This document shows, piece by piece, positions 29,176 to 43,322 of a stretch of DNA of 64,000 bases. Each line of letters begins with the position of its first letter. Position 1 is the first letter of the stretch. This stretch comes from Bacteroidota bacterium (lineage in GTDB: Bacteria > Bacteroidota > Bacteroidia > Bacteroidales > Prolixibacteraceae), in assembly GCA_023251455.1 (NCBI GenBank), contig JAHEYT010000022.1, forward strand, positions 1 to 64,000, read 5' to 3'. Made by a program: the position numbers and the translations under genes. The notes under the pieces were generated by a model. That model made no database searches, was not told where the DNA came from, and saw only the letters and a program-made list of their open reading frames with translations.

Positions 29176-29196
29176 GATGCTTTTAAATATATAATC

Positions 29197-29235
29197 GGCA
29201 AAACGATTTGCTATTATTTGTTAAAACGATTTGTC
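29197..29235. repeat. candidate left-end transposase sites L1 (29197-29213) and L2 (29221-29235)
   Basis: GGCAAAACGATTTGCTA and TTAAAACGATTTGTC; L1 is 15/17 identical in inverted orientation to 43217-43233. Confidence 0.45.
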
Positions 29236-29260
29236 GTTGAAACGCACACGGATCATCTTA

Positions 29261-29306
29261 TCTAAAAGAAATAGAGCAGTATTGTTACCGCCCTATTTCT
29301 TTTAGA
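29261..29306. terminator. 14-bp perfect inverted repeat at 3' end of RelA/SpoT-like gene
   Basis: TCTAAAAGAAATAG - 18 nt - CTATTTCTTTTAGA, overlapping the stop codon. Confidence 0.55.
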
Positions 29307-30312
29307 TGTCCTTGTTAGAATACCCCAATGATGAAAAAACTTCACTTAAAACATCTTGTTCGAATTTCCAAGATTCCTTCAGTTTGTAACCTAATCTTTG
29401 TATAATAAAGAACATCAAAAGAAGAACTACCGGTTGTTGTCTTAAATGAGACTTTAGCGACTCAACAGCGATCCGTATTTCTTTTTTGTGATTTCTTAAA
29501 ACTTCAACAACATTTTCTAATGTATATTTTGACGGCAATTCAACAACATTAAATATTTCCTTAGAAATGGCAAAATCAACATCATTAAAATTAAAAGGTA
29601 ATTCTAATATTTCATTTGAAAAAGAAATAAGTTGTCTAACTATGTTTTTTTCATTTTGCGATTGGGTAACCATGTGATTATTTGCTGAAATAAAATATTC
29701 ATCAGTTATTTCCATAAGAGCCATAGATTTTGCCATAATTCTTTTTAGATCATTATCATATTCAAACTCTCCTTTATATATTGTATCATGGCTAATCTGA
29801 GCCCAAGCATGCTGAAGTAAAGTTTTTAATTGGACTTCGCAAACATACAAATCCAGATCTTCTTCAATTATTTCATCTATAAAAATGACACTCAGGGGTC
29901 TCAATAAAACATGCACAGCGCAATATGAGAATTTCTCAGCATCTAAATTAAATGAATATTCGTCTTTTATTTCAACGATTGACCAAACTTCTTTGTTTGA
30001 AATTATAGCATCTTTTATTAAATCTTGTTCTTTTTTTGATGTTACTACTATTCTAGTGCGTACTTTATCAGTTATTTCTTTTAACGGATCTTTGTATTTC
30101 TTATCTCTATAAAAAGCTTTTTTTAAAATAGAATCATCAGATTTAAGACAAAAATTTGGTGGAATCTCCAGGTTAATATCCTTATTAAAACCGTCCAAAG
30201 AGTTCATTAATTCATTTAACTTATGGTCGAAAGCTTGTCCAACTAATTCTAAATTAGGTTTTAGACTTTCGAAACTTGAAATGAATATTTGCTCTTTAAG
30301 CTTCTCTTCCAT
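29302..30312 (-). CDS. RelA/SpoT-domain (p)ppGpp/alarmone synthetase-like protein, no HD domain
   Basis: DKVRTRIVV, FSYCAVHVLL (Y-x3-H), CEVQLKTLLQHAWAQISHDTIYK = synthetase motifs; about 140-aa C-terminal extension; likely start MEEKL at 30312. Confidence 0.85.
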   Translation of the reverse strand: MEEKLKEQIFISSFESLKPNLELVGQAFDHKLNELMNSLDGFNKDINLEIPPNFCLKSDDSILKKAFYRDKKYKDPLKEITDKVRTRIVVTSKKEQDLIKDAIISNKEVWSIVEIKDEYSFNLDAEKFSYCAVHVLLRPLSVIFIDEIIEEDLDLYVCEVQLKTLLQHAWAQISHDTIYKGEFEYDNDLKRIMAKSMALMEITDEYFISANNHMVTQSQNEKNIVRQLISFSNEILELPFNFNDVDFAISKEIFNVVELPSKYTLENVVEVLRNHKKEIRIAVESLKSHLRQQPVVLLLMFFIIQRLGYKLKESWKFEQDVLSEVFSSLGYSNKDI

Positions 30313-31384
30313 AAGGCTCTCCTTTAACAAGGATTAAAGAATTACCACCAGAATTTGTTCTCAATAATTCATTTAGTGCTTCCTCCGAAATAATAGGAAT
30401 AACCTGAACATTTCTATCAAATGTATCTTCGGGCCCTTCGATTCTTACTTTATTAGGAAAAAAAACTTTCTTTGTTTTTAATGAAAAATCAAGTAATGTC
30501 GTATTTTTCACGAATGGTCTTGGATAGTCAATTAGAATTTGAGTTGAAAAATTTTGTTTTATATCATCATTCCTGCTAAAAAATCTATCTCTAATCGATT
30601 CAGGGTCAATTATATCTGAAACATCATATTTCATAGTATTCCTCATCAGCGATGTCAATTCGATTCTTTCAATAGGATTTTCAATTTGATCATAAATGAA
30701 GTCGTTAACTTGATCATAAAACCTTCTGGTTAAAATCTTATCATTGGAATTTAAATCAAGTCCGAGAAAGTCTTTAGAAAAGAATTCCGCAGGATTCAGT
30801 GTCGGATTAAATTGATTATCAAACAGCAAGCTAGAATATAAGTTATTGGGGAATGATTCATTGGCATTATTTTCTTCATAAATTATTCCTAGTTTGTAAA
30901 ATTTAGTTGATGGCGAAAGAAATATATCTTCAACAAATTGAATATCAACTTTACCATTTGTATGCTTTAAGGAAAGCGCATTATGTACCTCCGCTTTTAA
31001 CGCTATGACAAAATTTTCCTCGTTAAAGCTTTTACCCTTAATAATGAAAATATATCCTCCTGGGATATTTGACCTCTTTTGACTTTTCGCAAGCCTTTGC
31101 GCAATTCCTTTAGAATGTGAAATAAAATCACCATTATTCTTAATTATATCATCTACATACCTAAAAAAACTATCTTCATTAAAATCAGAAATCTTTAATT
31201 GAAATGATTTTGATTCAATGCCAATAGCATTGTTAATTCTTTTCTTTAAAAGTTCAACAATTCTGGCCTCTAAATCCAATGTTTCATTTTCAAACTCGCA
31301 AATTGAATGCTGTTGATCTCGTTGTTTTTTAAAAATTGTATGTACTACAATTTTTAAAAAGTTAGTCTGTGTGATGTTGATCAT
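30296..31384 (-). CDS. uncharacterised 362-aa protein overlapping the RelA/SpoT-like gene; possible distant NdpA/YejK nucleoid-associated protein relative
   Basis: Long ORF; layout PGGYIFIIKGK..., KFYKLGIIYE...FFSKDFLGLDLNS...TRRFYDQVNDFI loosely resembles NdpA. Confidence 0.6.
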   Translation of the reverse strand: MINITQTNFLKIVVHTIFKKQRDQQHSICEFENETLDLEARIVELLKKRINNAIGIESKSFQLKISDFNEDSFFRYVDDIIKNNGDFISHSKGIAQRLAKSQKRSNIPGGYIFIIKGKSFNEENFVIALKAEVHNALSLKHTNGKVDIQFVEDIFLSPSTKFYKLGIIYEENNANESFPNNLYSSLLFDNQFNPTLNPAEFFSKDFLGLDLNSNDKILTRRFYDQVNDFIYDQIENPIERIELTSLMRNTMKYDVSDIIDPESIRDRFFSRNDDIKQNFSTQILIDYPRPFVKNTTLLDFSLKTKKVFFPNKVRIEGPEDTFDRNVQVIPIISEEALNELLRTNSGGNSLILVKGEPYGREA

Positions 31385-31733
31385 GATTTAATTTTTAGTT
31401 GTATCGTTTGATAGTTATGGTAATTAACTTGGGAAAAGCGATCAGTCTGCTAAAATAATAACATCACAATAACAACAATCTACACTTATTAAAGCAGATT
31501 TAAGTATCAAAATTATTTCTTGATTCTACTAAATTAAATCTTTTTTCAATCATAATAGCTGTATATGACAATAATAATATTTTAAACTTCATTAAGCACT
31601 ATTACTTAATGCACAGCAAATTATCTTTATAGGAATAAATAAGCTTCTGTCCTAGTGAAAAATAGAGCTGACACACCTTTATTTTTAAGCCTGGGGCTTA
31701 GAAACTCACTAATGAGGAGTTGGAGCCAATAAA

Positions 31734-31758
31734 AAAGAGCCGAATAAATCGGCTCTTT
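31734..31758. terminator. bidirectional hairpin downstream of MuB-like gene
   Basis: AAAGAGCCGA ATAAA TCGGCTCTTT, A-run 5' side. Confidence 0.8.
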
Positions 31759-31899
31759 GCGGGTTAATCCTGATATGCTTTTGTAAAACGCTTTTGTCCC
31801 CATCGCCCGCTAGGTGTTGGCTAAACTTACCGACACAACAGAACTTGAACAAATATATTGAATTATTTAATCATGAAATAGTTTCGTGTATTCGTTAGC

Positions 31900-32796
31900 C
31901 TAACTTAGGATCAGCAAACTCTCTGCCCTTCGAAGGCCACCAATGCCGCCGTTATTGTCGTTAATCAGACACCGGCTGATGATCCGGTTCATTTGTTCGC
32001 TTGGACAATTATTCGCCTCTAAAACGTCAGAAATAAGCTTCTTATAAAAGTTGCTTCTTTCTCTTTGATCAATTGGAACTATGCGAGTGAATTTTTCGCT
32101 AAACCGGCTAAAAATTTCAGCGTATCCAACAGTTCTGTTACTTATCCCTCGTTCAATTTTAGCGCGTAACCCATCAGCACCCATCATGTACCAACCTACA
32201 AACCCCTCGGTCGCATTCCAAAATTCTTTCAATTCAAGAAAGGCCTGATATTCCAAGTCTCCCGCCTCGTCAATAATCAAAATGGGTTTATTCATCGTCT
32301 TTAAATGTATTTTCAACGATGTTTTAACGTCATAATAACGCCCTTTAAATTCAGTTCCAACGCTTTTTGCGATCAGGCGAATAAACTGAGTTTTAGTTTT
32401 TGCCTGTGAACAATCGATGTAAAAACAGTTTTTTAAAGTTCTGGCAATGTACTTAGCTGAGTATGTTTTGCCAATTCCGCAATCATCAACAAAAATTCTG
32501 GCTTTGCTATTGATTTTACAGAAAATAATTTCTTCCTCAATTATCTTAAACACATCCGTTTTTGCTGTTTTCCACTTCCTGCTATCAAGCAAAACGTCAA
32601 ACTCCTGAGCAAGTAACAACCATTTTAAAGGCGACAATACACCTTCTCTTTCTCCGTTGTGAATTCGCGTAAAAATTGCCCCTGACAGACCATACATTCT
32701 GGCAAACTGACCGTTTGTGCCGTCAAAATTACGACGCCGCAACATCATAGCCTCGTAAACTCTTTCTTTAATTTCGGGTGTAATTGTGATAGCCAT
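31900..32796 (-). CDS. MuB-like AAA ATPase / transposition target-selection protein
   Basis: N-terminal HTH; ARIFVDDCGIGKTYSAKYIA Walker A-like; PILIIDEAGDLEY Walker B; immediately downstream of MuA-like gene. Confidence 0.87.
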   Translation of the reverse strand: MAITITPEIKERVYEAMMLRRRNFDGTNGQFARMYGLSGAIFTRIHNGEREGVLSPLKWLLLAQEFDVLLDSRKWKTAKTDVFKIIEEEIIFCKINSKARIFVDDCGIGKTYSAKYIARTLKNCFYIDCSQAKTKTQFIRLIAKSVGTEFKGRYYDVKTSLKIHLKTMNKPILIIDEAGDLEYQAFLELKEFWNATEGFVGWYMMGADGLRAKIERGISNRTVGYAEIFSRFSEKFTRIVPIDQRERSNFYKKLISDVLEANNCPSEQMNRIISRCLINDNNGGIGGLRRAESLLILS

Positions 32797-32810
32797 AACT
32801 TGGTTCTTTG

Positions 32811-34877
32811 TTAAAATCTATCTTTTAAACTCATATTAAATGGTGTTGAAATAGTCTTAAAAATATCATCTTCATCTTCAACGTCTTCCATGATCTCTAC
32901 TGGCCCAATACGTTCTGTAATTGGTTTTCGTAATCCTGTAATCTGAAATTTATTATTTAGTGTCTTTGGCGTATTGTCGATCACGGTTACTTTTTCGATC
33001 GCTTTTTTCCTGCGGTTGATATATCCATCAATTGAGGATACATATTTTGCCATCGCTTCATAGTTGAAAAGATCGTCGGGTGTGCGTTCAATCTGAGCCT
33101 TATTGTGAGCCGGTTTAGCTACGGCCTCACAAACACATCGGTCGGTACCGCGCAAATAGACCAGAGCTTTCATTATATGGCCATCGTTGCCATCGAGCCA
33201 GTAAACATCAAGCTCTTTTCCTTCAATTTGTTCAATAATTCCGGTTAATCGGTTGCTATAAACAATTCGTCCATTTTCGCCAATCAGGTACTTTTTATTA
33301 TTCAGCTTAATCTGACCGACATTGCATGATGTTTCTGTCTTATGTCCAAGGTAAGGAAGGAAAGCGCGCCAGTTTGTTGGTTTTACTTCAGGGTTTTGTG
33401 TTTCCAGAAATACTTCCCATCTGGTTTTACCTTTTATTTTGGAGTGTTCCATGTTATTCCAGGTTTCAATGTCTTTCAAACAACCTTCAGCCAGTAAATC
33501 GTAAGGCACAATAGGTTGCGGTTTTGCTCCAGCCTGATTCGATTCTGAAAGAGCAAACGGACGAGCCAACCAGCCTTCACGCTCTTTCTCCAAATCGTAA
33601 CGTAATGGACGGTAATAAGCTTCAATTCGTTTTCCGCGGGCATTATTGGCTTCAATATGTATGTATTGAAACATGGAGCCTTCCTGAAGGAAAGTATTCA
33701 GGAATGAGCTGTTTAAACTCATTTCACCCTCTAATTCTGCCGGAAGGTTCAAACCCCATCCGGTATAGTTGCGAACCATTTGACGGTAAAAATCAATGAT
33801 AATTCCCTCTTTGGTTTGTCCGTAAACCCATGTTGTGAAGGCTTCAGAGCCCAAATCAATCGCATTGTAAAACCACATGCGCTTACCTTTGGCATATTCG
33901 AATGGTGGCTGACGGTCATCAATAGAAATGATTGAGTTAGCAAACTTAGGCTGTATCATGTCGTGGTATGGTCTAAATTTCGACATCCAAACCTGACGAT
34001 TTCCGGAGCGAATGGTATGTGTTCCAACTTTCGAAGACCATTTAGATAAATAACTTTTAATTGTTGATTGAGATAGTTTTGGGAACTCCCCCGGATCGTA
34101 AATTTCGCCGGTTCCGTTGTTTATTACTTCAACATATCCGGATAGAAAACCATCGTACTGGCGTGAGATCTTTGTGGCTGTTGGTTTATCCGTTTGATAG
34201 GAAAACATCGAATCAAGCAACTCCTTAACTCGTTCGTCGAGCTTAACCGCCGATTTATTACAGAAATTGCCGTGAATCAATGCCTCATAACCTTCCTTTT
34301 TGTAGTCTTTCATTTTGCGTTGTAAGGCGGTTGAGCTTTCGGGTAGTGTATGTGGCCGAATAACTTTAAACCGGTTACATTCGCTCGAAACGATTTGCCA
34401 GGTTCCTCTTATGCTTCCTCTTAAATTGCGTCTAAGCGCAATACGTTTAGAATGTACACGTTCAACACAATTAAGAACAGACGCGTTTAAAGTACATTCG
34501 TCGATAATATTACCTGGCAACAATTTCCCATCATTAATTCGATAATTGATAAAATATTCATAAGCGGCAAGGTCTTTTTCAAAATGCTTTTCAAAAATTG
34601 ACTTTTTAGGTTGATGCTCTGGATTTCCAAAAGCCTGAATAAGTATTTTTTGCCACGAGGGTGGTACTGTTTCAAAAGTAATTAGCATCGGAGTATTAGG
34701 GCCACGCATACGAGAACGTTTTATATAACCCTTTTCAATTCTTTTTTGGAGTCCTCTTTCTCCAATTAATTGCAAACTTTCATTATCGGCGCTTTTTCCC
34801 GAAATAAGATAACGAGCTTTTACGCAAAGTTCACCGTTATAGTATTCAAAAGGTTTCCCAGATAATTCGTAATTCAT
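32811..34877 (-). CDS. Mu-type DDE transposase
   Basis: PKFANSIISIDDRQPPFEYAKGKRMWFYNAIDLGSEAFTTWVYG; HIEANNARGKRIEAYYRPLRYDLEKEREGWLARPFA; Mu_transpos_C-like C-terminal region. Confidence 0.88.
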   Translation of the reverse strand: MNYELSGKPFEYYNGELCVKARYLISGKSADNESLQLIGERGLQKRIEKGYIKRSRMRGPNTPMLITFETVPPSWQKILIQAFGNPEHQPKKSIFEKHFEKDLAAYEYFINYRINDGKLLPGNIIDECTLNASVLNCVERVHSKRIALRRNLRGSIRGTWQIVSSECNRFKVIRPHTLPESSTALQRKMKDYKKEGYEALIHGNFCNKSAVKLDERVKELLDSMFSYQTDKPTATKISRQYDGFLSGYVEVINNGTGEIYDPGEFPKLSQSTIKSYLSKWSSKVGTHTIRSGNRQVWMSKFRPYHDMIQPKFANSIISIDDRQPPFEYAKGKRMWFYNAIDLGSEAFTTWVYGQTKEGIIIDFYRQMVRNYTGWGLNLPAELEGEMSLNSSFLNTFLQEGSMFQYIHIEANNARGKRIEAYYRPLRYDLEKEREGWLARPFALSESNQAGAKPQPIVPYDLLAEGCLKDIETWNNMEHSKIKGKTRWEVFLETQNPEVKPTNWRAFLPYLGHKTETSCNVGQIKLNNKKYLIGENGRIVYSNRLTGIIEQIEGKELDVYWLDGNDGHIMKALVYLRGTDRCVCEAVAKPAHNKAQIERTPDDLFNYEAMAKYVSSIDGYINRRKKAIEKVTVIDNTPKTLNNKFQITGLRKPITERIGPVEIMEDVEDEDDIFKTISTPFNMSLKDRF

Positions 34878-34887
34878 TTTTCTTTTT

Positions 34888-34950
34888 GGTAAGTGGCTAT
34901 AAGTCTTATTGTATCATCAGAACTCGGTTCCGGTCAGAGAACCGAGTTCT
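34888..34950. promoter_or_regulatory. leader hairpin unit 1 (upstream of transposase gene)
   Basis: GGTAAGTGGCTATAAG box then AGAACTCGGTTC CGGTCAGA GAACCGAGTTCT, 12-bp perfect stem. Confidence 0.6.
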
Positions 34951-34983
34951 TTATAAGTCAATTACATGTTACAACGCCGATTA

Positions 34984-35469
34984 TTAACCGTCATGAAGCT
35001 TTTGTCCGCCATAAAAGGCTTGTTTTATCTCTGATGAATTATAAGAGTTAATTGATTCAGAAATATCTTTTTCAATAGATAAAAATTCTTTTCTTTTCTT
35101 TTTGAAATCGCGACATATAGCTCTAAGTTTATTGACGGGGATCTCATCAAAGAATCTCATTCCGCTTTCACTGATTGCTATAATTTTTGCGGCATCAATG
35201 TTTCTTTCTTTGCCGAATAAATCTAACCATGATACTATTGAATCGATGGTTTTTATTCTCATTGTTTCAGTTTCAGGGGCTTTAGGGTTTAATATGTATT
35301 CAAACCTTAAACAAAAATCAGTCAACGTCTCGTTATCCATATCCATCGGACTATTTTTAACCAGAACGTTAATCTCATCGCTCGTAATTCCTTCCTGATT
35401 CAACCGTCGTAAAAGGACATAATATCTCTTTACTAGTTGATTGTGGTTAATTTCATCTAGCATTTTCAT
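34984..35469 (-). CDS. hypothetical element protein
   Basis: ORF 161 aa, coding-like, between hairpin units in the Mu-like element. Confidence 0.6.
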   Translation of the reverse strand: MKMLDEINHNQLVKRYYVLLRRLNQEGITSDEINVLVKNSPMDMDNETLTDFCLRFEYILNPKAPETETMRIKTIDSIVSWLDLFGKERNIDAAKIIAISESGMRFFDEIPVNKLRAICRDFKKKRKEFLSIEKDISESINSYNSSEIKQAFYGGQKLHDG

Positions 35470-35503
35470 ATTATTTATTTAAATGGAACTTCTCTATTTT
35501 TAA

Positions 35504-35545
35504 GATTCCGGGGCCGCCCTGAGAATCGGCGGTTATCCCGGAATC
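35504..35545. promoter_or_regulatory. intergenic hairpin with nested stem
   Basis: GATTCCGGG ... CCCGGAATC outer stem, CCGCC/GGCGG inner stem. Confidence 0.55.
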
Positions 35546-35579
35546 ATTGCTAAAAAATGCTGTTTAAACGGCGTTTAAA

Positions 35580-36005
35580 TTACCCTACCTTTTTGAGTGC
35601 CTGAAATACAAGGTTTGTGCTGTTCGTTGCCGGTTCTGTCTCAATCAGGCTCAAGGCCTCCCTTATTCCTGTTTTTTGTTTGTCTGTTAAGTTTTTCGGC
35701 AGTTTGACGTGTCTCTCTTCAACGGAAAACGCTCTTTCGGTTTGGTCATCGTTAAGTAACATTTCTTCCAGCAAGTTCATCGCCCAAAAAATCTCACCAT
35801 TCTGAGGCGGATAATCATTAAAATTATAACATTGGACCAGCCTTACTATACTAAGTTGCATGTTCAATAATGAGCTGGAGTCTCCTGATAGGGTCACTGT
35901 AATTTTTAGGTTTTCTTTGTCTAATTCAACCATGATTTTTAATCTTTTAGGTAAGTAATTCAGTTGTTTTGCTATATTTGTATTGGATTTATAATTTTCA
36001 TTCAT
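35580..36005 (-). CDS. hypothetical element protein
   Basis: ORF 141 aa downstream of tape-measure-like gene. Confidence 0.6.
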   Translation of the reverse strand: MNENYKSNTNIAKQLNYLPKRLKIMVELDKENLKITVTLSGDSSSLLNMQLSIVRLVQCYNFNDYPPQNGEIFWAMNLLEEMLLNDDQTERAFSVEERHVKLPKNLTDKQKTGIREALSLIETEPATNSTNLVFQALKKVG

Positions 36006-36014
36006 TTGTTTTTA

Positions 36015-36082
36015 GGTGAGTGGCTAAAGGTTGGGTTTAAGAGTTTACCATGATAAAGCGGTTCCGGTCAGGGAAGCGCTTT
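36015..36082. promoter_or_regulatory. leader hairpin unit 2 (upstream of 141-aa gene)
   Basis: GGTGAGTGGCTAAAGG box then AAAGCGGTTCC GGTCAG GGAAGCGCTTT. Confidence 0.6.
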
Positions 36083-36084
36083 TT

Positions 36085-39000
36085 TTATAGCCTATCCTTT
36101 AAAGTTTTGTTCATATCCTTCATTTCATCCCGAATGACAACAAGCTCTTTGTTGTATGATGTATTTTCCGCTATTTGCCTCATATAAAGCAGCGTTCTGC
36201 TTGCATCATCCTGACCCATTGCAATCTGTTTTAAAACATCTTTAATATCTATCCTTACAGCCGTTAATTGTCCGATTAATGCCGATCCGGTATCTTCTGT
36301 TAGATTTCTGTATATACCCGTCATGGCAGTACTCGAACTTGCCCCAACGCCATATTGGTCGGTAACCAACTTAACTGCCGCGGAGTTTTCTTCTCCTGAT
36401 TTTACAATTGTACTATATATACCCTCTAAAATTGCCTGCTCGCGTGGACTTATTTTTTCGCCGTTAGGGCCGACTTCATCATTCTGAAGGAATTCTTTAA
36501 TTTTCGGCAAAAAGTTGGTAGTGATATCGGTATTTGTTGAGTCAATTATCGCTTGCATCAACGCCTTTTTCATCAACTCACCAAAAGATTGGGCAAAACC
36601 GCCAAGACTATTTTCCCCCAATCTCAATCCGTCTTCAATTCCCTGATAAATTGAATCTGAAACCTCAGAAGCATCAAAACCAAGTGCATTCCTAAAAGTT
36701 TCCTGAAGCAATTCGGCTCGTTGTTTTTGAGATTCAACAATACCCTGAACCCATTCAATCTGTTGTTTATCTAAAACTAAACTACCATCAGCATAAGCCT
36801 TAACAAAATCATCTGGAGTCCAATTGGCCGTTTCTCCGCTCAACTGGCTTCTATATTTCTGCCATCCAATCTGCGCAAGTGGCCCATTTGGAAAATCTTT
36901 CTTTTGCTGATTGAAGTATTTCTGAGCCGCGGCATATTCCTCTTTGGTGAGAATATGAGAGGTTTGTAGTTTTTGGTTATTTAAATCAATGGCTTTGCCA
37001 TATTCATCGAATTGCTTCGCGGCAAGTTCAAAATAATTACTTCCGGCCAAATTTGCCAGAATAGTTGATTGTTGTTTTAAAAGTTCATTAACGTTTTCAA
37101 GAGCCTTTGTTGTGGGGTCTTCTTTTTTTGTTCCGGAAGAAAGCGCAGTTATTAGAGTAGAAGCAGCGCCAAATGCAGCGCCTACAAAGTTGCCCGAAGC
37201 AAGGTTCATGACAATATCAGCCATACCCTGCAGCTGCTTACTTTCGTCCTGGCTTAATCCAAGCTGTTCAATCATCTCACCGGTAAACTGGCGGGCACTG
37301 TTTAAAATATCATCCTGAAGTTTTGACTTGCGTGTAAGGGTTTCAATTTCGATTTCGCCCTGCAATAACTGTGCATTTTGTTTGTCTTTCGGATCGTTCG
37401 ACTTTTTAAGGAGCGCAATGCGTTGGTTGTTGTATTTTACCCAAGTATCGAAGTTAAGCTTCATCAACTTTGCTTCGCGATCGAACCCCGTAGCCTGAAT
37501 CTGGTTTTTTTGTTTCTCTATTTTTTCCTCAAAATCAATTTTTTGTAAGGCATATTTATTGTCAATTTCTGTGTTTGCACTGTTACGCAATGTCGGTATT
37601 GCAGCTAATAAAGCAGCATCCTTAGCCTCTGTGGCAGACTTCTCCTGTTCGTCGTAATATTTGTTAATCGCGGCCTTTTCTTTCTCAATTCCTTTGAGCC
37701 GGAAGTCAGATACTTCCTGCCATATTTCTTTAATCTTTTCGCCAGCCTTTTCGTTGATAGCGTCAACTTTGCTGTTTTTTAATTCTTCGGCAGCAATTAC
37801 TTTCTCATCAACTTGTTTCTGATCAGCTTCGGGAAGAACAGAAACGTACTTATCCGTTTTTTTTCCGGTTTTCAGGTCAATACCTCCGTTGGCCTCATTC
37901 ACTTTTTTTAACTGACTCTCTTTTTGGTTGGCAATGTCAACGAGGGTTTTCCTAAAATCCAGTTCGGCTTGTTTGCGTTGTTTTTCGGCGCTGTCTTTTT
38001 GGGAATTCAAAAGGGTTTGTTCAATTTCAATCTGGTTGCTTATGCGTTGCCGGCCAATCTCACTTTCGTAGTCGATTTGCTTTTTCGATAGCTGATTAGC
38101 TTTGTCCTGTGCTTTTTGGGCAGCTTCATCCACGGCAGTTTGTTTTCTGTTGATTGCTGCCGCCAGTTGGTTTTCATCCCGGCGACTTCCTATCTGCGAC
38201 TGGCCTTCAAGCTGAACCTGCGATTTTTTCAGTTCGGCCAGCGATTTAAGGGCTTTAAGGGTAGGCTTTTCAAACTTGGCAACCAAATCAACGGCCTCTT
38301 TGCCCGTCATACCATAGGCAGTCTCCAGTTCCGAATTGATGAGTAAAAGTTCATTTTTTAATTCGGTATATTTTTCAGGGCGCGAACGTTGTAAATAATC
38401 AGATTTAATGCCGGCACCTAATTTCTTCGACACCTCGTTATACCGTTCAGCCAATGCCATTAACTGCTCATTTTTCGTATATTCAAAGGTCAATGCCTCA
38501 ATCTTATCAGCCGACATCTTGTTATCAAGTGCCATCTGATTTTTTGTAAGCTCGTATTTATCCTTAGCAATTACAGCCTGTCGCGTAAAATCTACTTTTT
38601 GAATCTCAATAATTTTACTGAGGTTCTGAATAAGTTTGTCGGTATTTTCAACGCCTTTATCGAACGTTCCTGAGCGCAAATCACTTATTTGTTTTTGTGC
38701 CTCGGCGCTTTTAACCTCCTGCTCAATGGTTCGCCGTTCAACCTTCTCCATTTCTTCGGTATATTTCACAGCGCCCAATACAGCCCGGTCCATTCCTTCC
38801 CAAAAGTTACTCCAATCGCCAGAGGCAATGGCGCGGAAAAAATAATTTGTTGCGGTTGTTGCCGCATTCATCGTTTTTTCAAAAAAGCTGGAAGTCTTTT
38901 CCGTTGATTCAATAATTTCCTTTGTAACTTTCATCGCAGCAACAACCGAGAACAGTCCAACAGCCCAACGGCCAAGGCCACCAATTAACGACGTTTGCGA

Positions 39001-39387
39001 TTTTTCTTCCGCTACATTTCCGGAAGTAAGTTGCTTTTGCATGGCAAGCAATGCGCCCTGCTCTGCTACAAGGTCGCGCCTTGCGGTTGCCAGTGCCGAG
39101 GAAGCTGCAATCTTATCTTTACCCGTTGAGCTGCTAACAGTATTATTTAGTTCCTTGATTTGTTGCTGAAGGTCTTTTATGGCCTGCTTCTGAATCTGAA
39201 TAGATGCCTTTAATTGCGTTGCAGTCTGGGTGGCAAAATCGTTCATTGCCTTGGTCATCTTTACCGCTTCTTTCTCAACAGTATCAGTAACACCGGCAAT
39301 CTCAGCTTTCATCTTTGCACCCTCTGCCGCAAAATTGGTATGCTTCAGTACAAAATCAATATCTACAGGTTCAACAGAGTTGCTCAT
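36085..39387 (-). CDS. phage tail tape-measure-like coiled-coil protein
   Basis: 1100 aa; N-terminal DIDFVLKHTNFAAEGAKMKAEIAGVTDTVEKEA; hydrophobic patch GGLGRWAVGLFSVVAAMKV; long Lys/Glu/Gln-rich helices. Confidence 0.68.
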   Translation of the reverse strand: MSNSVEPVDIDFVLKHTNFAAEGAKMKAEIAGVTDTVEKEAVKMTKAMNDFATQTATQLKASIQIQKQAIKDLQQQIKELNNTVSSSTGKDKIAASSALATARRDLVAEQGALLAMQKQLTSGNVAEEKSQTSLIGGLGRWAVGLFSVVAAMKVTKEIIESTEKTSSFFEKTMNAATTATNYFFRAIASGDWSNFWEGMDRAVLGAVKYTEEMEKVERRTIEQEVKSAEAQKQISDLRSGTFDKGVENTDKLIQNLSKIIEIQKVDFTRQAVIAKDKYELTKNQMALDNKMSADKIEALTFEYTKNEQLMALAERYNEVSKKLGAGIKSDYLQRSRPEKYTELKNELLLINSELETAYGMTGKEAVDLVAKFEKPTLKALKSLAELKKSQVQLEGQSQIGSRRDENQLAAAINRKQTAVDEAAQKAQDKANQLSKKQIDYESEIGRQRISNQIEIEQTLLNSQKDSAEKQRKQAELDFRKTLVDIANQKESQLKKVNEANGGIDLKTGKKTDKYVSVLPEADQKQVDEKVIAAEELKNSKVDAINEKAGEKIKEIWQEVSDFRLKGIEKEKAAINKYYDEQEKSATEAKDAALLAAIPTLRNSANTEIDNKYALQKIDFEEKIEKQKNQIQATGFDREAKLMKLNFDTWVKYNNQRIALLKKSNDPKDKQNAQLLQGEIEIETLTRKSKLQDDILNSARQFTGEMIEQLGLSQDESKQLQGMADIVMNLASGNFVGAAFGAASTLITALSSGTKKEDPTTKALENVNELLKQQSTILANLAGSNYFELAAKQFDEYGKAIDLNNQKLQTSHILTKEEYAAAQKYFNQQKKDFPNGPLAQIGWQKYRSQLSGETANWTPDDFVKAYADGSLVLDKQQIEWVQGIVESQKQRAELLQETFRNALGFDASEVSDSIYQGIEDGLRLGENSLGGFAQSFGELMKKALMQAIIDSTNTDITTNFLPKIKEFLQNDEVGPNGEKISPREQAILEGIYSTIVKSGEENSAAVKLVTDQYGVGASSSTAMTGIYRNLTEDTGSALIGQLTAVRIDIKDVLKQIAMGQDDASRTLLYMRQIAENTSYNKELVVIRDEMKDMNKTLKDRL

Positions 39388-39426
39388 CTTTTTGTTATTT
39401 AGTTTTTGAATAATTTGATTTTAAAA

Positions 39427-39454
39427 TGTCCGGGGAAGGTCAGTCCCCCGGACA
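39427..39454. promoter_or_regulatory. leader hairpin unit 3 (upstream of tape-measure-like gene)
   Basis: TGTCCGGGG AAGGTCAGTC CCCCGGACA, followed by GGCTAAAGG box. Confidence 0.6.
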
Positions 39455-39499
39455 AAGGCTAAAGGCTGTGAGAAAGAGCCGAAAAGCCTACCATGAGAA

Positions 39500-40141
39500 T
39501 TAATATTTTCGTATGAAATGTACGTCAAGTTGACCGCGTCCATTTATCCAACGAATCCCTGGAACAACTTCCTGTCTGTGTATTTGTTGGCCTGTAACTT
39601 TTTCCAATTCAGTAAGGCCGTCGCAAACTTTCCAAAGTAATTTAGTTACTTCAATCTGCTTTTTGCCAACTGCATAAACAGTGTGCAAATCATCAATCAT
39701 TGTTTTATAGTTTGGATTTAAAACAACCTTATTTTCTTCCTTATTAAAATCTGTGTAATTGAAGTATCTCCAATCTTCTGGGCTTAATTCAGTTAGTAAT
39801 GTCAAAACCGTTTTAATCTCTTCATGATTAATCTCCAACAGTTCATAGAACTTTTCTTTCTTAAGTTTAAGCCCTAATATTTTTTGGTCGGTGTGATTAG
39901 AATCAATCGTCAGTTGCTTTAAATAATTGCTGATAATTCGTTCTGAGTGTTCTTCGAAATCAAACTCTAGCATTATAGAGCAATAGTTGTGCAACGTTTG
40001 TTCAAGCTTGTCCAAGTCTGGGGAATAACCCCATTCTTGCAATTTGGTTAATACAGTACCTAAAATTTTGCATACATGTGGGCATCTTTCAACTTCGGAT
40101 TCAATGGCCAGCGTGTCTTTTGTAATAACTAGTTTTTCCAT
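39500..40141 (-). CDS. hypothetical element protein
   Basis: ORF 213 aa in tight array. Confidence 0.6.
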   Translation of the reverse strand: MEKLVITKDTLAIESEVERCPHVCKILGTVLTKLQEWGYSPDLDKLEQTLHNYCSIMLEFDFEEHSERIISNYLKQLTIDSNHTDQKILGLKLKKEKFYELLEINHEEIKTVLTLLTELSPEDWRYFNYTDFNKEENKVVLNPNYKTMIDDLHTVYAVGKKQIEVTKLLWKVCDGLTELEKVTGQQIHRQEVVPGIRWINGRGQLDVHFIRKY

Positions 40142-40165
40142 GATTTGATTATTTTAAAATTAAGG

Positions 40166-40651
40166 TCAAAATTTCTTTGTAAGGGATTCAATATCTGTAA
40201 AAAGACGTTTTTTTGCTTCTCCATAGTTATTATCGCATAGCGTCAGGTAGTCATTCACTTTTTGTTTTATCGCCTCTTTGGGTATGCCCTTATAGTCTAC
40301 CAACATAATGAACATCTTTTCAATAGTTTCGAGGTAAAGCAAATTTTCAGGAGAGTCGGATAAGCCTATCTTACTGGCTTCTTTAGCTTTAAAATTTAAA
40401 ACGTTTGGTAAATCGGTCAGAAGAGTCTTTTTTGCTTTCTCGTAGTCGTATCTATTTTCAATTAGGCAACAGTCAACCTTCTTTTTTAGGTTTTGTGATG
40501 AGAACGTACTATCAACCATTTTCATCATAAATTCAATACTCTCAAAAAAAAGATTATTCGCTTTTATATCGAGAGGTGTAAGTTTTTGGGCAGTTAATTT
40601 GTCGCTTAGCAGGATGGGGTATATACTTCCATAAATAATTGGATCAGACAT
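40166..40651 (-). CDS. hypothetical protein with two copies of a ~50-aa module
   Basis: FFESIEFMMKMVDS...KKKVDCCLIENRYDYEKAKKTLLTDL and YLETIEKMFIMLVD...KQKVNDYLTLCDNNYGEAKKRLFTDIE. Confidence 0.65.
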   Translation of the reverse strand: MSDPIIYGSIYPILLSDKLTAQKLTPLDIKANNLFFESIEFMMKMVDSTFSSQNLKKKVDCCLIENRYDYEKAKKTLLTDLPNVLNFKAKEASKIGLSDSPENLLYLETIEKMFIMLVDYKGIPKEAIKQKVNDYLTLCDNNYGEAKKRLFTDIESLTKKF

Positions 40652-40670
40652 AGCTTTGATATTTTAAAGT

Positions 40671-40940
40671 TTAGGGTTGTGTTTCTATGGGAGTCTGAAT
40701 CTGGGTTTCAAAATCAGCAAAAAGATGTTTTTTCGCTTCCTCATAATTGTTGTCATATTGCACCAGGTAGTCATTCACTTTTTGCCTTAGCATCTCAGTT
40801 GTACCGTCATCAATCATTTCAAATAGCATGATCAGCGATTCGATATAAAGCACATTCGCATAAGAACCTGCAAAGTCAATTGTTTTGGCCTTACTTTTAG
40901 TTGATCGAAAGAACTTCGGGATTTTTAATTTAAATGTCAT
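40671..40940 (-). CDS. hypothetical protein with one copy of the same ~50-aa module
   Basis: YIESLIMLFEMIDD...RQKVNDYLVQYDNNYEEAKKHLFADFE. Confidence 0.6.
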   Translation of the reverse strand: MTFKLKIPKFFRSTKSKAKTIDFAGSYANVLYIESLIMLFEMIDDGTTEMLRQKVNDYLVQYDNNYEEAKKHLFADFETQIQTPIETQP

Positions 40941-40951
40941 ATCGGTAGTTT

Positions 40952-41260
40952 TTAAAGTATTGGGCTTGATCCTTCACCGTATTTTTCAGCTTGGTAATTC
41001 ATCCGGGCGGAGAACTGTTCGGAGGGTTCGGTATTCAAAGCCTCTGAAATGGCTTTCATGGCCTCAGTTTCCTTAGTTTTATTTTCAGTTAAGTATTCGG
41101 CTGTGGCTTTTAATACGTCGGGGAAGTGCAGATTTCTAACGTCACCGTTCAAAACTCTTAAAACGGTATAGTAGCCTAATCCGGAACGGTCGGAAATAGC
41201 TTTTACCGCCCCATGAGCTAACCTTTTTCGAACGTCTGATAAATCAATAATTGTGTCCAT
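40952..41260 (-). CDS. HTH regulator (phage repressor/activator-like)
   Basis: VRKRLAHGAVKAISDRSGLGYYTVLRVLNGDVRNLHFPDVLKATAEYL HTH-like; twin palindromes in its promoter; start taken at MDTII 41260. Confidence 0.68.
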   Translation of the reverse strand: MDTIIDLSDVRKRLAHGAVKAISDRSGLGYYTVLRVLNGDVRNLHFPDVLKATAEYLTENKTKETEAMKAISEALNTEPSEQFSARMNYQAEKYGEGSSPIL

Positions 41261-41288
41261 TTGTGCAGCTTTATTATTTATAACTGCA

Positions 41289-41358
41289 CAAATATAAATA
41301 AATGTTTGACTAATATTAGTCAAACACAATAAAATGTTTGAATAAAATTACTCAAACA
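41289..41358 (-). promoter_or_regulatory. promoter with twin 24-bp operator palindromes
   Basis: -7 TATATTTG (41289-41296, minus); TGTTTGACTAATATTAGTCAAACA (41303-41326, perfect) and TGTTTGAATAAAATTACTCAAACA (41335-41358). Confidence 0.75.
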
Positions 41359-41368
41359 TTGTTAAAAC

Positions 41369-41401
41369 AAATAAAGTCAGGTGTTTAGCCTGACTTTATT
41401 T
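41369..41401 (-). terminator. hairpin terminator downstream of the 243-aa gene
   Basis: AAATAAAGTCAGG TGTTTAG CCTGACTTTATTT, 13-bp stem. Confidence 0.8.
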
Positions 41402-41426
41402 TAAACTGGTGGCTATATTTCTTAAA

Positions 41427-42158
41427 TTAAATGCTTAGTTCTTTGTAATACGGCCTAGTATGTTCATCTGTAAAATCGAAAATGTTACAATATTTCTCTA
41501 CCAAACCTTCAAACTTTCGTCCCCCTCTGAAAATCCAATTTAGCTTCTCAAAACTCTTATAAAAAATAATTCTATTCAGTATCTCAATTGTTCTTTTAAC
41601 ATCATACAGGCAATTATTTTCAATTAAGAAACGTTCAAGTTCGGTTTGAACAATAGAAGAATACCAACTAAAAAGACTCATTCCCTTTGATTGATTTTCA
41701 TTTAATGAAAATGGCTCATTGAAAAATAAATCGATATTAATCCCGGCTTTATTTTTGTCTCGTTCATACAAATTTACAGTCAACGACTCGCCAGCCCATC
41801 GGTTTTCAAAGGAATCTAAATCCAGTTCAAGAATAAAAATACTCTGATAATAATTATAAATAGCTGCAAACAGAGTTGTATCAAAATCATTGAATTCAGT
41901 GATTAACATGTTGGCTACATTGGTTATTATAATCGCTTCGTTTTCAATAATTTTGATGCATTCTTTATTGTCAGAATTTGTTATTTCAGCAAAATCATTT
42001 TCAGTATAGTACTCATTAAAAGCTTTTGATTTTACCTTCGTATTTTGTCTGTTGGCAGTAACGAGGGCATAAATGCTAAAATACCGATCACCATTAATGA
42101 TGTAAGGCTTAAGATTAGTATTTAAATAGTGTTTTACTGTTATCTTTCCCATTATCAA
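41427..42158 (-). CDS. uncharacterised 243-aa element protein
   Basis: Intact ORF with coding-like composition; no confident family. Confidence 0.6.
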   Translation of the reverse strand: MIMGKITVKHYLNTNLKPYIINGDRYFSIYALVTANRQNTKVKSKAFNEYYTENDFAEITNSDNKECIKIIENEAIIITNVANMLITEFNDFDTTLFAAIYNYYQSIFILELDLDSFENRWAGESLTVNLYERDKNKAGINIDLFFNEPFSLNENQSKGMSLFSWYSSIVQTELERFLIENNCLYDVKRTIEILNRIIFYKSFEKLNWIFRGGRKFEGLVEKYCNIFDFTDEHTRPYYKELSI

Positions 42159-42261
42159 GCTTTAAAATGCTGAAAAATTGGTTTTTATACTCGTTCTATT
42201 CTCACAAAGATACAGCGATTGCCGGAAAAATAAAATGTCTAACAGTTATAAACAAATTAAC

Positions 42262-42573
42262 CTACCATTTAAAGTGTGGAATTTCGATCTTTAGTTTCTG
42301 TGGGGTGGGTTTTAACTTCATTACTTCGTTGATCTGATCGTTATTCAACTGGAGCCGGTCTGTGATGGTTCTTTCAGCTAAATCAAATTCATTAATGAGT
42401 TGCTTTATTGTCTCTTCGTACTTTAACCGGCATATTGAAGTGTGATAATAGTAGCGCAAAATCAATTTTCTGTCTCTTTTATTGATTAGGGTTTCAGATC
42501 GACCGCGGCCCAGCTTAATGGGTCCCGTTTCTTCAGCAAAAAAGGGCTTAAATAACTTTTGATTACCCCGCAT
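42262..42573 (-). CDS. small element protein, possible HTH
   Basis: 103 aa; YEETIKQLINEFDLAERTITDRLQLNNDQI resembles an HTH; first gene after the promoter-distal noncoding region. Confidence 0.55.
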   Translation of the reverse strand: MRGNQKLFKPFFAEETGPIKLGRGRSETLINKRDRKLILRYYYHTSICRLKYEETIKQLINEFDLAERTITDRLQLNNDQINEVMKLKPTPQKLKIEIPHFKW

Positions 42574-42587
42574 ACTTTGGTTTTCAA

Positions 42588-42609
42588 CAAAAATAAAAAA
42601 TCTGCTTTA
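42588..42609 (-). promoter_or_regulatory. predicted promoter of the 103-aa gene with overlapping AAAGCAGATTT site
   Basis: Minus: TAAAGCAGATTTTT|TATTTTTG; same 12-mer inverted at 31490-31501. Confidence 0.5.
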
Positions 42610-42845
42610 TTAGTATGCGCTTGTTGCTTAAAGGTTATAAACAATTAATCTATTATCCGGATCATTGTCAAAATGATCTAAGTCCTTGTTAAATTATGGC
42701 ATTGCGTATCGAATATTCGCGTTAACAAACCCCGCTTGCAGCGCATTAAAACCTGCGCACACACGTTTTTAATTGCAAAATCAACAAAAATTTAACTAAA
42801 TTAGCTGTAAATAAGCTATTTACACACTCTTAAGAATATTATGTT

Positions 42846-42975
42846 GTGGTATTATAGGGGGGTGTATCCCTGCATTTTACACCACTTTAGGCATATTTTT
42901 TAGCACTAATGGGGTACTTATCCCTATGTTTTTTAGTGCTTTTTGTTCGGGTGTTACCCTTTCTTCTGTTCGGGT
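42846..42975. repeat. cluster of GGGT...ACCC/CCC palindromes and nested hairpins
   Basis: GGGGGGTGTATCCCTGCATTTTACACC; AGCACTAATGGGGTACTTATCCCTATGTTTTTTAGTGCT; CGGGTGTTACCC. Confidence 0.5.
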
Positions 42976-43216
42976 AAAGCCATTTTAAGGACATTTTAAG
43001 CGTAAAACTTTAACTATCCTGGAAGTGCCTTTTGGGTCTTTAAATGGCATTTTTATCTCATTTAAAGGAGTTTTAAGTAAAGCCCTAAATGGTGCAAATG
43101 GCCTTATTTTATTAGGATTTCCATCGTTATTCACAGCTAAATTAAACTTACACAAAAAAAAGGCCCAAAAATGAGCCCTGTAATTAAAGTAAGTTTAAAC
43201 CGAAATTAAACTTTCG

Positions 43217-43299
43217 TAGCAATTTGTTTTGCCTCGCTAATTTTTAAGTTGTAGTTAATCAGATAAATACAAACTGTTGTTTTATGCAATTTGTTTTAT
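43217..43299. repeat. candidate right-end transposase sites R2 (43217-43233) and R1 (43286-43299)
   Basis: TAGCAATTTGTTTTGCC and GCAATTTGTTTTAT, inverted relative to L1/L2 at 29.2 kb. Confidence 0.45.
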
Positions 43300-43322
43300 C
43301 CCCCTTAAATACTTTTTTTGGT

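Follow-up and report, generated by a model that had tools for sequence, protein, structure and literature searches.

The minus strand of the window, a 64,000-nucleotide stretch of a Bacteroidota contig (JAHEYT010000022.1), carries two overlapping genes, the first for a protein of the NA37/YejK family and the second for an HD-less RelA/SpoT-type synthetase (Table 1). The earlier note on this DNA had claimed 2 overlapping minus-strand ORFs; both are present and intact, remaining open over about 700 codons with a normal codon-position composition, and the reading as a two-gene unit is supported. The AAAGGAG ribosome-binding site lies 6 nt upstream of the synthetase ATG at position 30312, and the synthetase gene overlaps the NA37 gene by 17 nt. 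A longer in-frame version of the synthetase starting from the TTG at 30330 was rejected, because both the position of the ribosome-binding site and the ATG starts of the relatives favor 30312. Since an intrinsic terminator precedes the pair, the 2 genes are likely to form a separate transcription unit. The inverted repeat at the end of the synthetase gene was not flagged by the terminator scanner.

Table 1. Features of the gene pair and of the mobile element that carries it (positions in the window).
Feature	Position	Strand	Evidence
NA37/YejK-family protein, 362 aa, first gene of the pair	30296..31384	-	Pfam NA37 8.7e-15, phrog_1974 1.1e-22, AF2, Foldseek
HD-less RelA/SpoT-type synthetase, 336 aa, helical C-terminal extension	29302..30312	-	Pfam RelA_SpoT 1.9e-9, AF2, Foldseek, motif counts
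AAAGGAG ribosome-binding site of the synthetase, within the NA37 coding sequence	30319..30325	-	Direct sequence reading
Terminator-like perfect 15-bp inverted repeat, arms 29307-29293 and 29274-29260, spanning the synthetase stop codon	29260..29307	-	Direct reading
Intrinsic terminator between the MuB-like gene and the pair	31734..31758	-	Terminator scan
Mu-like mobile element, 14,115 bp, with the pair as terminal cargo	29190..43304		Empty sites in six same-genus genomes
Target-site duplication TTAAATA, left copy	29183..29189		Identical 7-mer at both junctions
Target-site duplication TTAAATA, right copy	43305..43311		Identical 7-mer at both junctions
MuB-like transposition ATPase	31900..32796	-	phrog_296 2.2e-31
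MuA-like transposase	32811..34877	-	phrog_310 2.3e-35

The 362-aa partner had previously been described as a protein of no confident family, with a layout loosely recalling NdpA/YejK. The former statement was wrong, whereas the resemblance, once checked by profile and structure, could be upgraded to a family assignment: the protein matches Pfam NA37 (PF04245) with 55.4 bits against a gathering cutoff of 24.6, and its AF2 model (pLDDT 89.9) has one strong Foldseek match, E. coli YejK (9be2; 2.0e-10, the next best being 0.04). By profile and fold, the partner is a member of the NA37/YejK family, and the 2 matches rule out a protein that is only loosely NdpA-like. The synthetase matches RelA_SpoT (PF04607) above the curated cutoff and yields no Pfam match to the HD hydrolase domain. 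In its AF2 model (pLDDT 88.6), residues 187-328 form an all-helical extension, in agreement with the earlier description of an HD-less synthetase with a C-terminal extension, here of about 150 aa. By Foldseek, the model matches RelP/RelQ (1e-7) and CapRel (1e-5) over the synthetase core; the best solved-structure matches, covering residues of about 18-197, are the (p)ppGpp synthetases RelP/RelQ.

The sequences flanking the element at 29190 and 43305 are adjacent in 6 genomes of the same genus, each with an intact empty site, which identifies the intervening DNA as an insertion; several of the empty sites contain a single copy of TTAAATA. The proposed carriage of the pair by a Mu-like element is hence proven by the empty sites together with the 7-bp target duplication, and besides the MuA and MuB homologues the element encodes a protein with similarity to tail tape-measure proteins (PHROG profile). 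The pair is placed at one extreme end, behind the terminator (31758-31734), and its GC content of 29-30%, versus 39-42% for the MuA, MuB, and tape-measure-like genes, points to separate acquisition. None of the 139 other genomes searched in the host's family contains the pair. Apart from MuA/MuB and the tape-measure-like gene, the element appears to have few other phage genes, and its gene order is unlike that of Mu, with the tape measure before MuA and the cargo after MuB; it is possibly a reduced element or a satellite. The closest MuA (54% identity, genome G589) belongs to a Mu-like element that also seems to carry an NA37 gene, based on a weak match of 23 bits (A4), without a synthetase (L198:1991-3043).

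Scanning of one genome per species yielded 71 relatives of the synthetase, from Bacteroidota, Rhodothermota-type bacteria, Kiritimatiellae, and alpha-, beta- and gammaproteobacteria, among others. In 70 of these, the gene next upstream, on the same strand, codes for an NA37 homologue; the contig of the sole unpaired relative (L088) begins 72 bases before the synthetase frame. On IMG/VR contigs, where the window protein alone found no match and a family profile retrieved the members, all 53 testable members are paired in the same way, and L260 is cut by the contig start. The co-conservation of the 2 genes, a prediction that could have failed, accordingly extends to 70/70 testable genomic and 53/53 viral loci. 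NA37 was found beside none of the 9 IMG/VR RelA/SpoT proteins of other clades (under 120 bits), and among Bacteroidota genomes the pairing is confined to the synthetase clade of the window and one distant sister (L011, L097). The association is far above chance. The most common arrangement is an overlap of exactly 4 nt (54 of the 73 measured pairs, with start codons chosen by script), and the pairwise distances in the NA37 and synthetase trees correlate at r = 0.955, compared with a maximum of 0.36 in 2,000 permutations, which shows co-inheritance to which vertical descent contributes. At one locus (L124:1639-4718), NA37 and the synthetase are followed by a second, more canonical NA37 (Pfam, 128 bits).

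Relatives of the pair reside in diverse mobile DNA. A tblastn search of plasmids found the pair in records from Klebsiella pneumoniae, Ochrobactrum, and gonococcus, the IMG/VR profile search placed others on viral contigs and prophages, and in E. coli the pair occurs in 4 of 5,426 genomes, within islands at tRNA-Thr beside proA that also carry an integrase. The pair belongs to a strictly co-inherited, mobile two-gene module. A SLATT/DUF4231 membrane-protein gene directly precedes NA37, sometimes overlapping it, in 12 of the 77 surveyed loci as well as in the E. coli islands; most loci, including that of the window, have neither SLATT nor another conserved third gene. The flanks of the wider family contain phage integrases (7/133) and restriction, pAgo, PsyrA, and Mza defense genes, a descriptive count with no matched control, for which reason a statistical claim of enrichment in defense islands was dropped.

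Both genes also have counterparts in other company. In Bacteroidota, other NA37 genes adjoin genes for LmuB (1.5e-70), TmtA (1e-147), or a match to an endonuclease effector (3e-14). Others adjoin genes for TPR proteins (about 600 aa), and the NA37 proteins of this last group are close to the window clade. These arrangements, in which NA37 adjoins or overlaps the gene for LmuB (Lamassu SMC-like), TmtA, the endonuclease effector, or the TPR protein, are seen at L205:1439-4326, L195:3362-6993, L197:3569-7281, L191:1745-4623, and L193:1769-4718. At 3 further loci (L194:3538-5719, L202:2148-4366, and L204:166-2452), NA37 overlaps the gene downstream of it, whose product of about 404-424 aa is without a match in Pfam or PADLOC. 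Conversely, the synthetases of another, related clade, in which NA37 is missing, carry fused SLOG (LSDAT_prok) and RyR domains (L121:3145-5739, L122:2865-5492) and adjoin an HD-like gene (L121) or a NUDIX gene (L122).

The active site of the window synthetase deviates from that of its relatives. The synthetase motifs had been reported as kept, and D82, Y130, H134, and E159 are indeed present, whereas one residue has changed in each of the motifs RxK (Arg), DxxGxR (Gly), YxSxH (Ser), and ExQxR (Arg). We compared the motifs with those of 126 other family members and 16 outgroup synthetases of other clades. Position 55, Cys in the window, is Arg in all 124 family members where it is present and in 16/16 of the other clades; position 85, here Arg, is Gly in 120 of 124 members and Ala in the rest; and positions 132 (Ala) and 163 (Lys) are Ser and Arg, respectively, each in 125/126 members. 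R55C, G85R, S132A, and R163K thus affect 4 positions conserved across the superfamily, and only the window copy has lost all of them. By motif alignment, C55 is equivalent to the Arg of RxK represented by FaRel2 R64, which contacts ATP (PMC11782079), and by CapRel R79, which coordinates adenine (PMC9712102), and with the 3 other substitutions its change has probably weakened or abolished ATP binding. Because 4 conserved active-site positions are substituted, the window synthetase may be impaired; the enzyme is likely weakened, altered, or dead, despite both open frames. Sequencing error was rejected as the source of these changes, which are several unrelated substitutions, some of 2 bases, in a continuous frame. 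None of the 140 family genomes contains a relative close enough for a selection test on the window copy.

Naturally rearranged copies bear on how the 2 proteins relate. In one (L223), NinB is fused to the last ~87 residues of NA37, and in another (L211/L212), a polymerase-beta-palm-like domain (PolB-palm) is fused to the last ~146; in both, the synthetase motif set is intact. Broken synthetases accompany an intact NA37 in gonococcus (L007/L093) and in L054, and away from contig edges we found no intact synthetase without the NA37 C-terminus. In the N. gonorrhoeae loci (L007:4509-6555, L093:4575-6621), the synthetase is split into 2 frames. A toxin-antitoxin arrangement predicts this asymmetry, with broken synthetases tolerated and the NA37 C-terminus kept beside intact synthetases, and the pattern suggests that the C-terminus may restrain the synthetase, as an antitoxin would. 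The chimeras represent just 2 independent events, and deletions sparing the synthetase would tend to spare the 3' end of NA37 anyway, making the asymmetry suggestive only. Together with the other partners of NA37 and the NA37-less SLOG/RyR synthetases, the asymmetry favors a view of NA37 as a regulator that can be exchanged, with the synthetase being one effector among several.

We consider it somewhat more probable than the contrary that the module is a toxSAS-like toxin-antitoxin or abortive-infection system with NA37 as sensor and antitoxin. For neutralization, trigger, product, and role in defense, we infer the following course. NA37 would be translated first, with synthesis of the synthetase coupled to it through the gene overlap, and would keep the enzyme inactive via its C-terminal segment. 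On sensing that the nucleoid is disturbed or that foreign DNA is present, the putatively DNA-associated N-terminal body of NA37 would release the synthetase, which, as the effector, would transfer pyrophosphate from ATP to a nucleotide or a tRNA 3' end, stopping growth. A pairing of sensor/antitoxin and alarmone synthetase had already been suggested for this locus; the two-gene unit, the NdpA/YejK family, the carriage by the element, and the co-conservation all speak for it, whereas for the copy in the window the suggestion is weakened by the 4 active-site substitutions.

The chance is nearly even that the window pair is a decaying relic, with a catalytically dead synthetase and at most NA37 still working, the functional module being found only in relatives. 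Besides C55, R85, A132, and K163 in place of near-universal residues, this is consistent with the terminal branch of the window synthetase, the longest of 64, with that of the window NA37, also the longest in its tree, with the deviation of the latter at 9 of 35 near-invariant columns, and with a related locus (L038) in which the NA37 frame is interrupted and the synthetase shares S132A and R163K. Decay is harder to reconcile with the 2 open frames and their normal composition, with the confidently predicted synthetase fold, and with the retention of K57, S61, K65, the catalytic D82, R87, the G-loop Y130, H134, E159, and Q161.

Two further explanations concern the family as a whole. It is rather unlikely that the pair serves mobile elements for addiction or regulation, with NA37 modulating the element's expression or replication, the synthetase signaling via (p)ppGpp, and neither having an anti-phage role. 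Mobile elements carry most of the copies seen, the (p)ppGpp synthetases RelP/RelQ are the closest solved structures, and the YejK homologue NdpA2 counters the silencer MvaT, thereby regulating transfer of the ICE PAPI-1 in P. aeruginosa (PMC8565334), all of which would fit. Nonetheless, a low-GC unit of its own behind a terminator and the rarity in E. coli form a pattern typical of accessory defense cargo, and some NA37 genes stand in operons with defense genes. More unlikely still is nucleotide signaling, whereby a messenger made by the synthetase would activate a separate effector (SLATT at the loci that have it) and NA37 would act as a sensor or activator, not as an antitoxin. The SLATT genes in front of NA37 are compatible with such signaling, as are the other-clade synthetases with their SLOG and RyR fusions and their NUDIX or HD-like neighbors; the lack of SLATT or another conserved third gene in most loci, including the window, argues against it.

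If the module is a toxin-antitoxin or immune system, NA37 on mobile elements gains a concrete job, the restraint of an alarmone-type toxin, and toxSAS regulation extends to a new, DNA-associated regulator. The module unites two well-known families, YejK-type nucleoid proteins and RelA/SpoT synthetases, in a single mobile unit across Bacteroidota, alpha-, beta-, and gammaproteobacteria, and others, and the E. coli versions make it directly testable in K-12. A broader and doubtful, although conceivable, reading is that NA37/YejK serves as a general, swappable sensor-adaptor of immune operons, which would watch the nucleoid and free the attached effector when a phage reorganizes or degrades host DNA. 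The effector attached to this one fold would then be an alarmone synthetase here; elsewhere it would be an LmuB SMC-like, TmtA, endonuclease-type, or TPR protein.

Searches of the open literature, with preprints and subscription papers outside their scope, for NA37, NdpA, or YejK together with toxSAS, defense, or SLATT returned no description of the pair, and the PADLOC models had no match to the NA37 partner. The pair is hence without prior description in the literature searched or in the defense-model library and may have been described elsewhere. The synthetase domain weakly matches the PADLOC candidate PDC-S33 (2.5e-5, residues 31-186); PDC-S33 is a single gene, and membership was not accepted because the match is partial and weak. 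Much like the toxSAS systems FaRel2/ATfaRel2 and PhRel2/PanA, the module combines an HD-less synthetase with an adjacent, co-inherited cognate gene, an antitoxin-like gene order, and a location in mobile DNA. By contrast, in place of a small antitoxin of the pZFD/PAD1/Panacea or Tis1-like kind it has a 360-aa NA37/YejK protein, so that the earlier remark on an atypically large partner was correct, and its synthetase has a long helical C-terminus. The RSH motif set (RxK, DxxGxR, YxSxH, ExQxR) is intact in the relatives and not in the window copy. Given the different partner fold and the altered active site of the window copy, the pair should not be classed with the known toxSAS systems. Pyrophosphorylation of tRNA is the established toxic activity of CapRel and FaRel2, the former also being an anti-phage system (PMC9712102, PMC11782079). 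With CapRel, a fused, prophage-borne toxSAS, the window synthetase shares the toxSYNTH fold, the G-loop Tyr, and a prophage-type location; unlike in CapRel, the candidate regulator is a separate upstream gene of unrelated fold, R79 is replaced by Cys55, and the C-terminal region is all-helical in the model instead of an antitoxin pseudo-zinc-finger fusion, full-length superposition being poor (rmsd 18-24 A). RelP and RelQ, the closest in structure, are housekeeping enzymes encoded by single genes; they have neither a C-terminal extension nor NA37 as a partner. Finally, the window NA37 shares Pfam family and fold with E. coli YejK, from which it differs in its divergent sequence (16% identity to 9be2), in its obligate pairing with a synthetase, and in being mobile rather than core.
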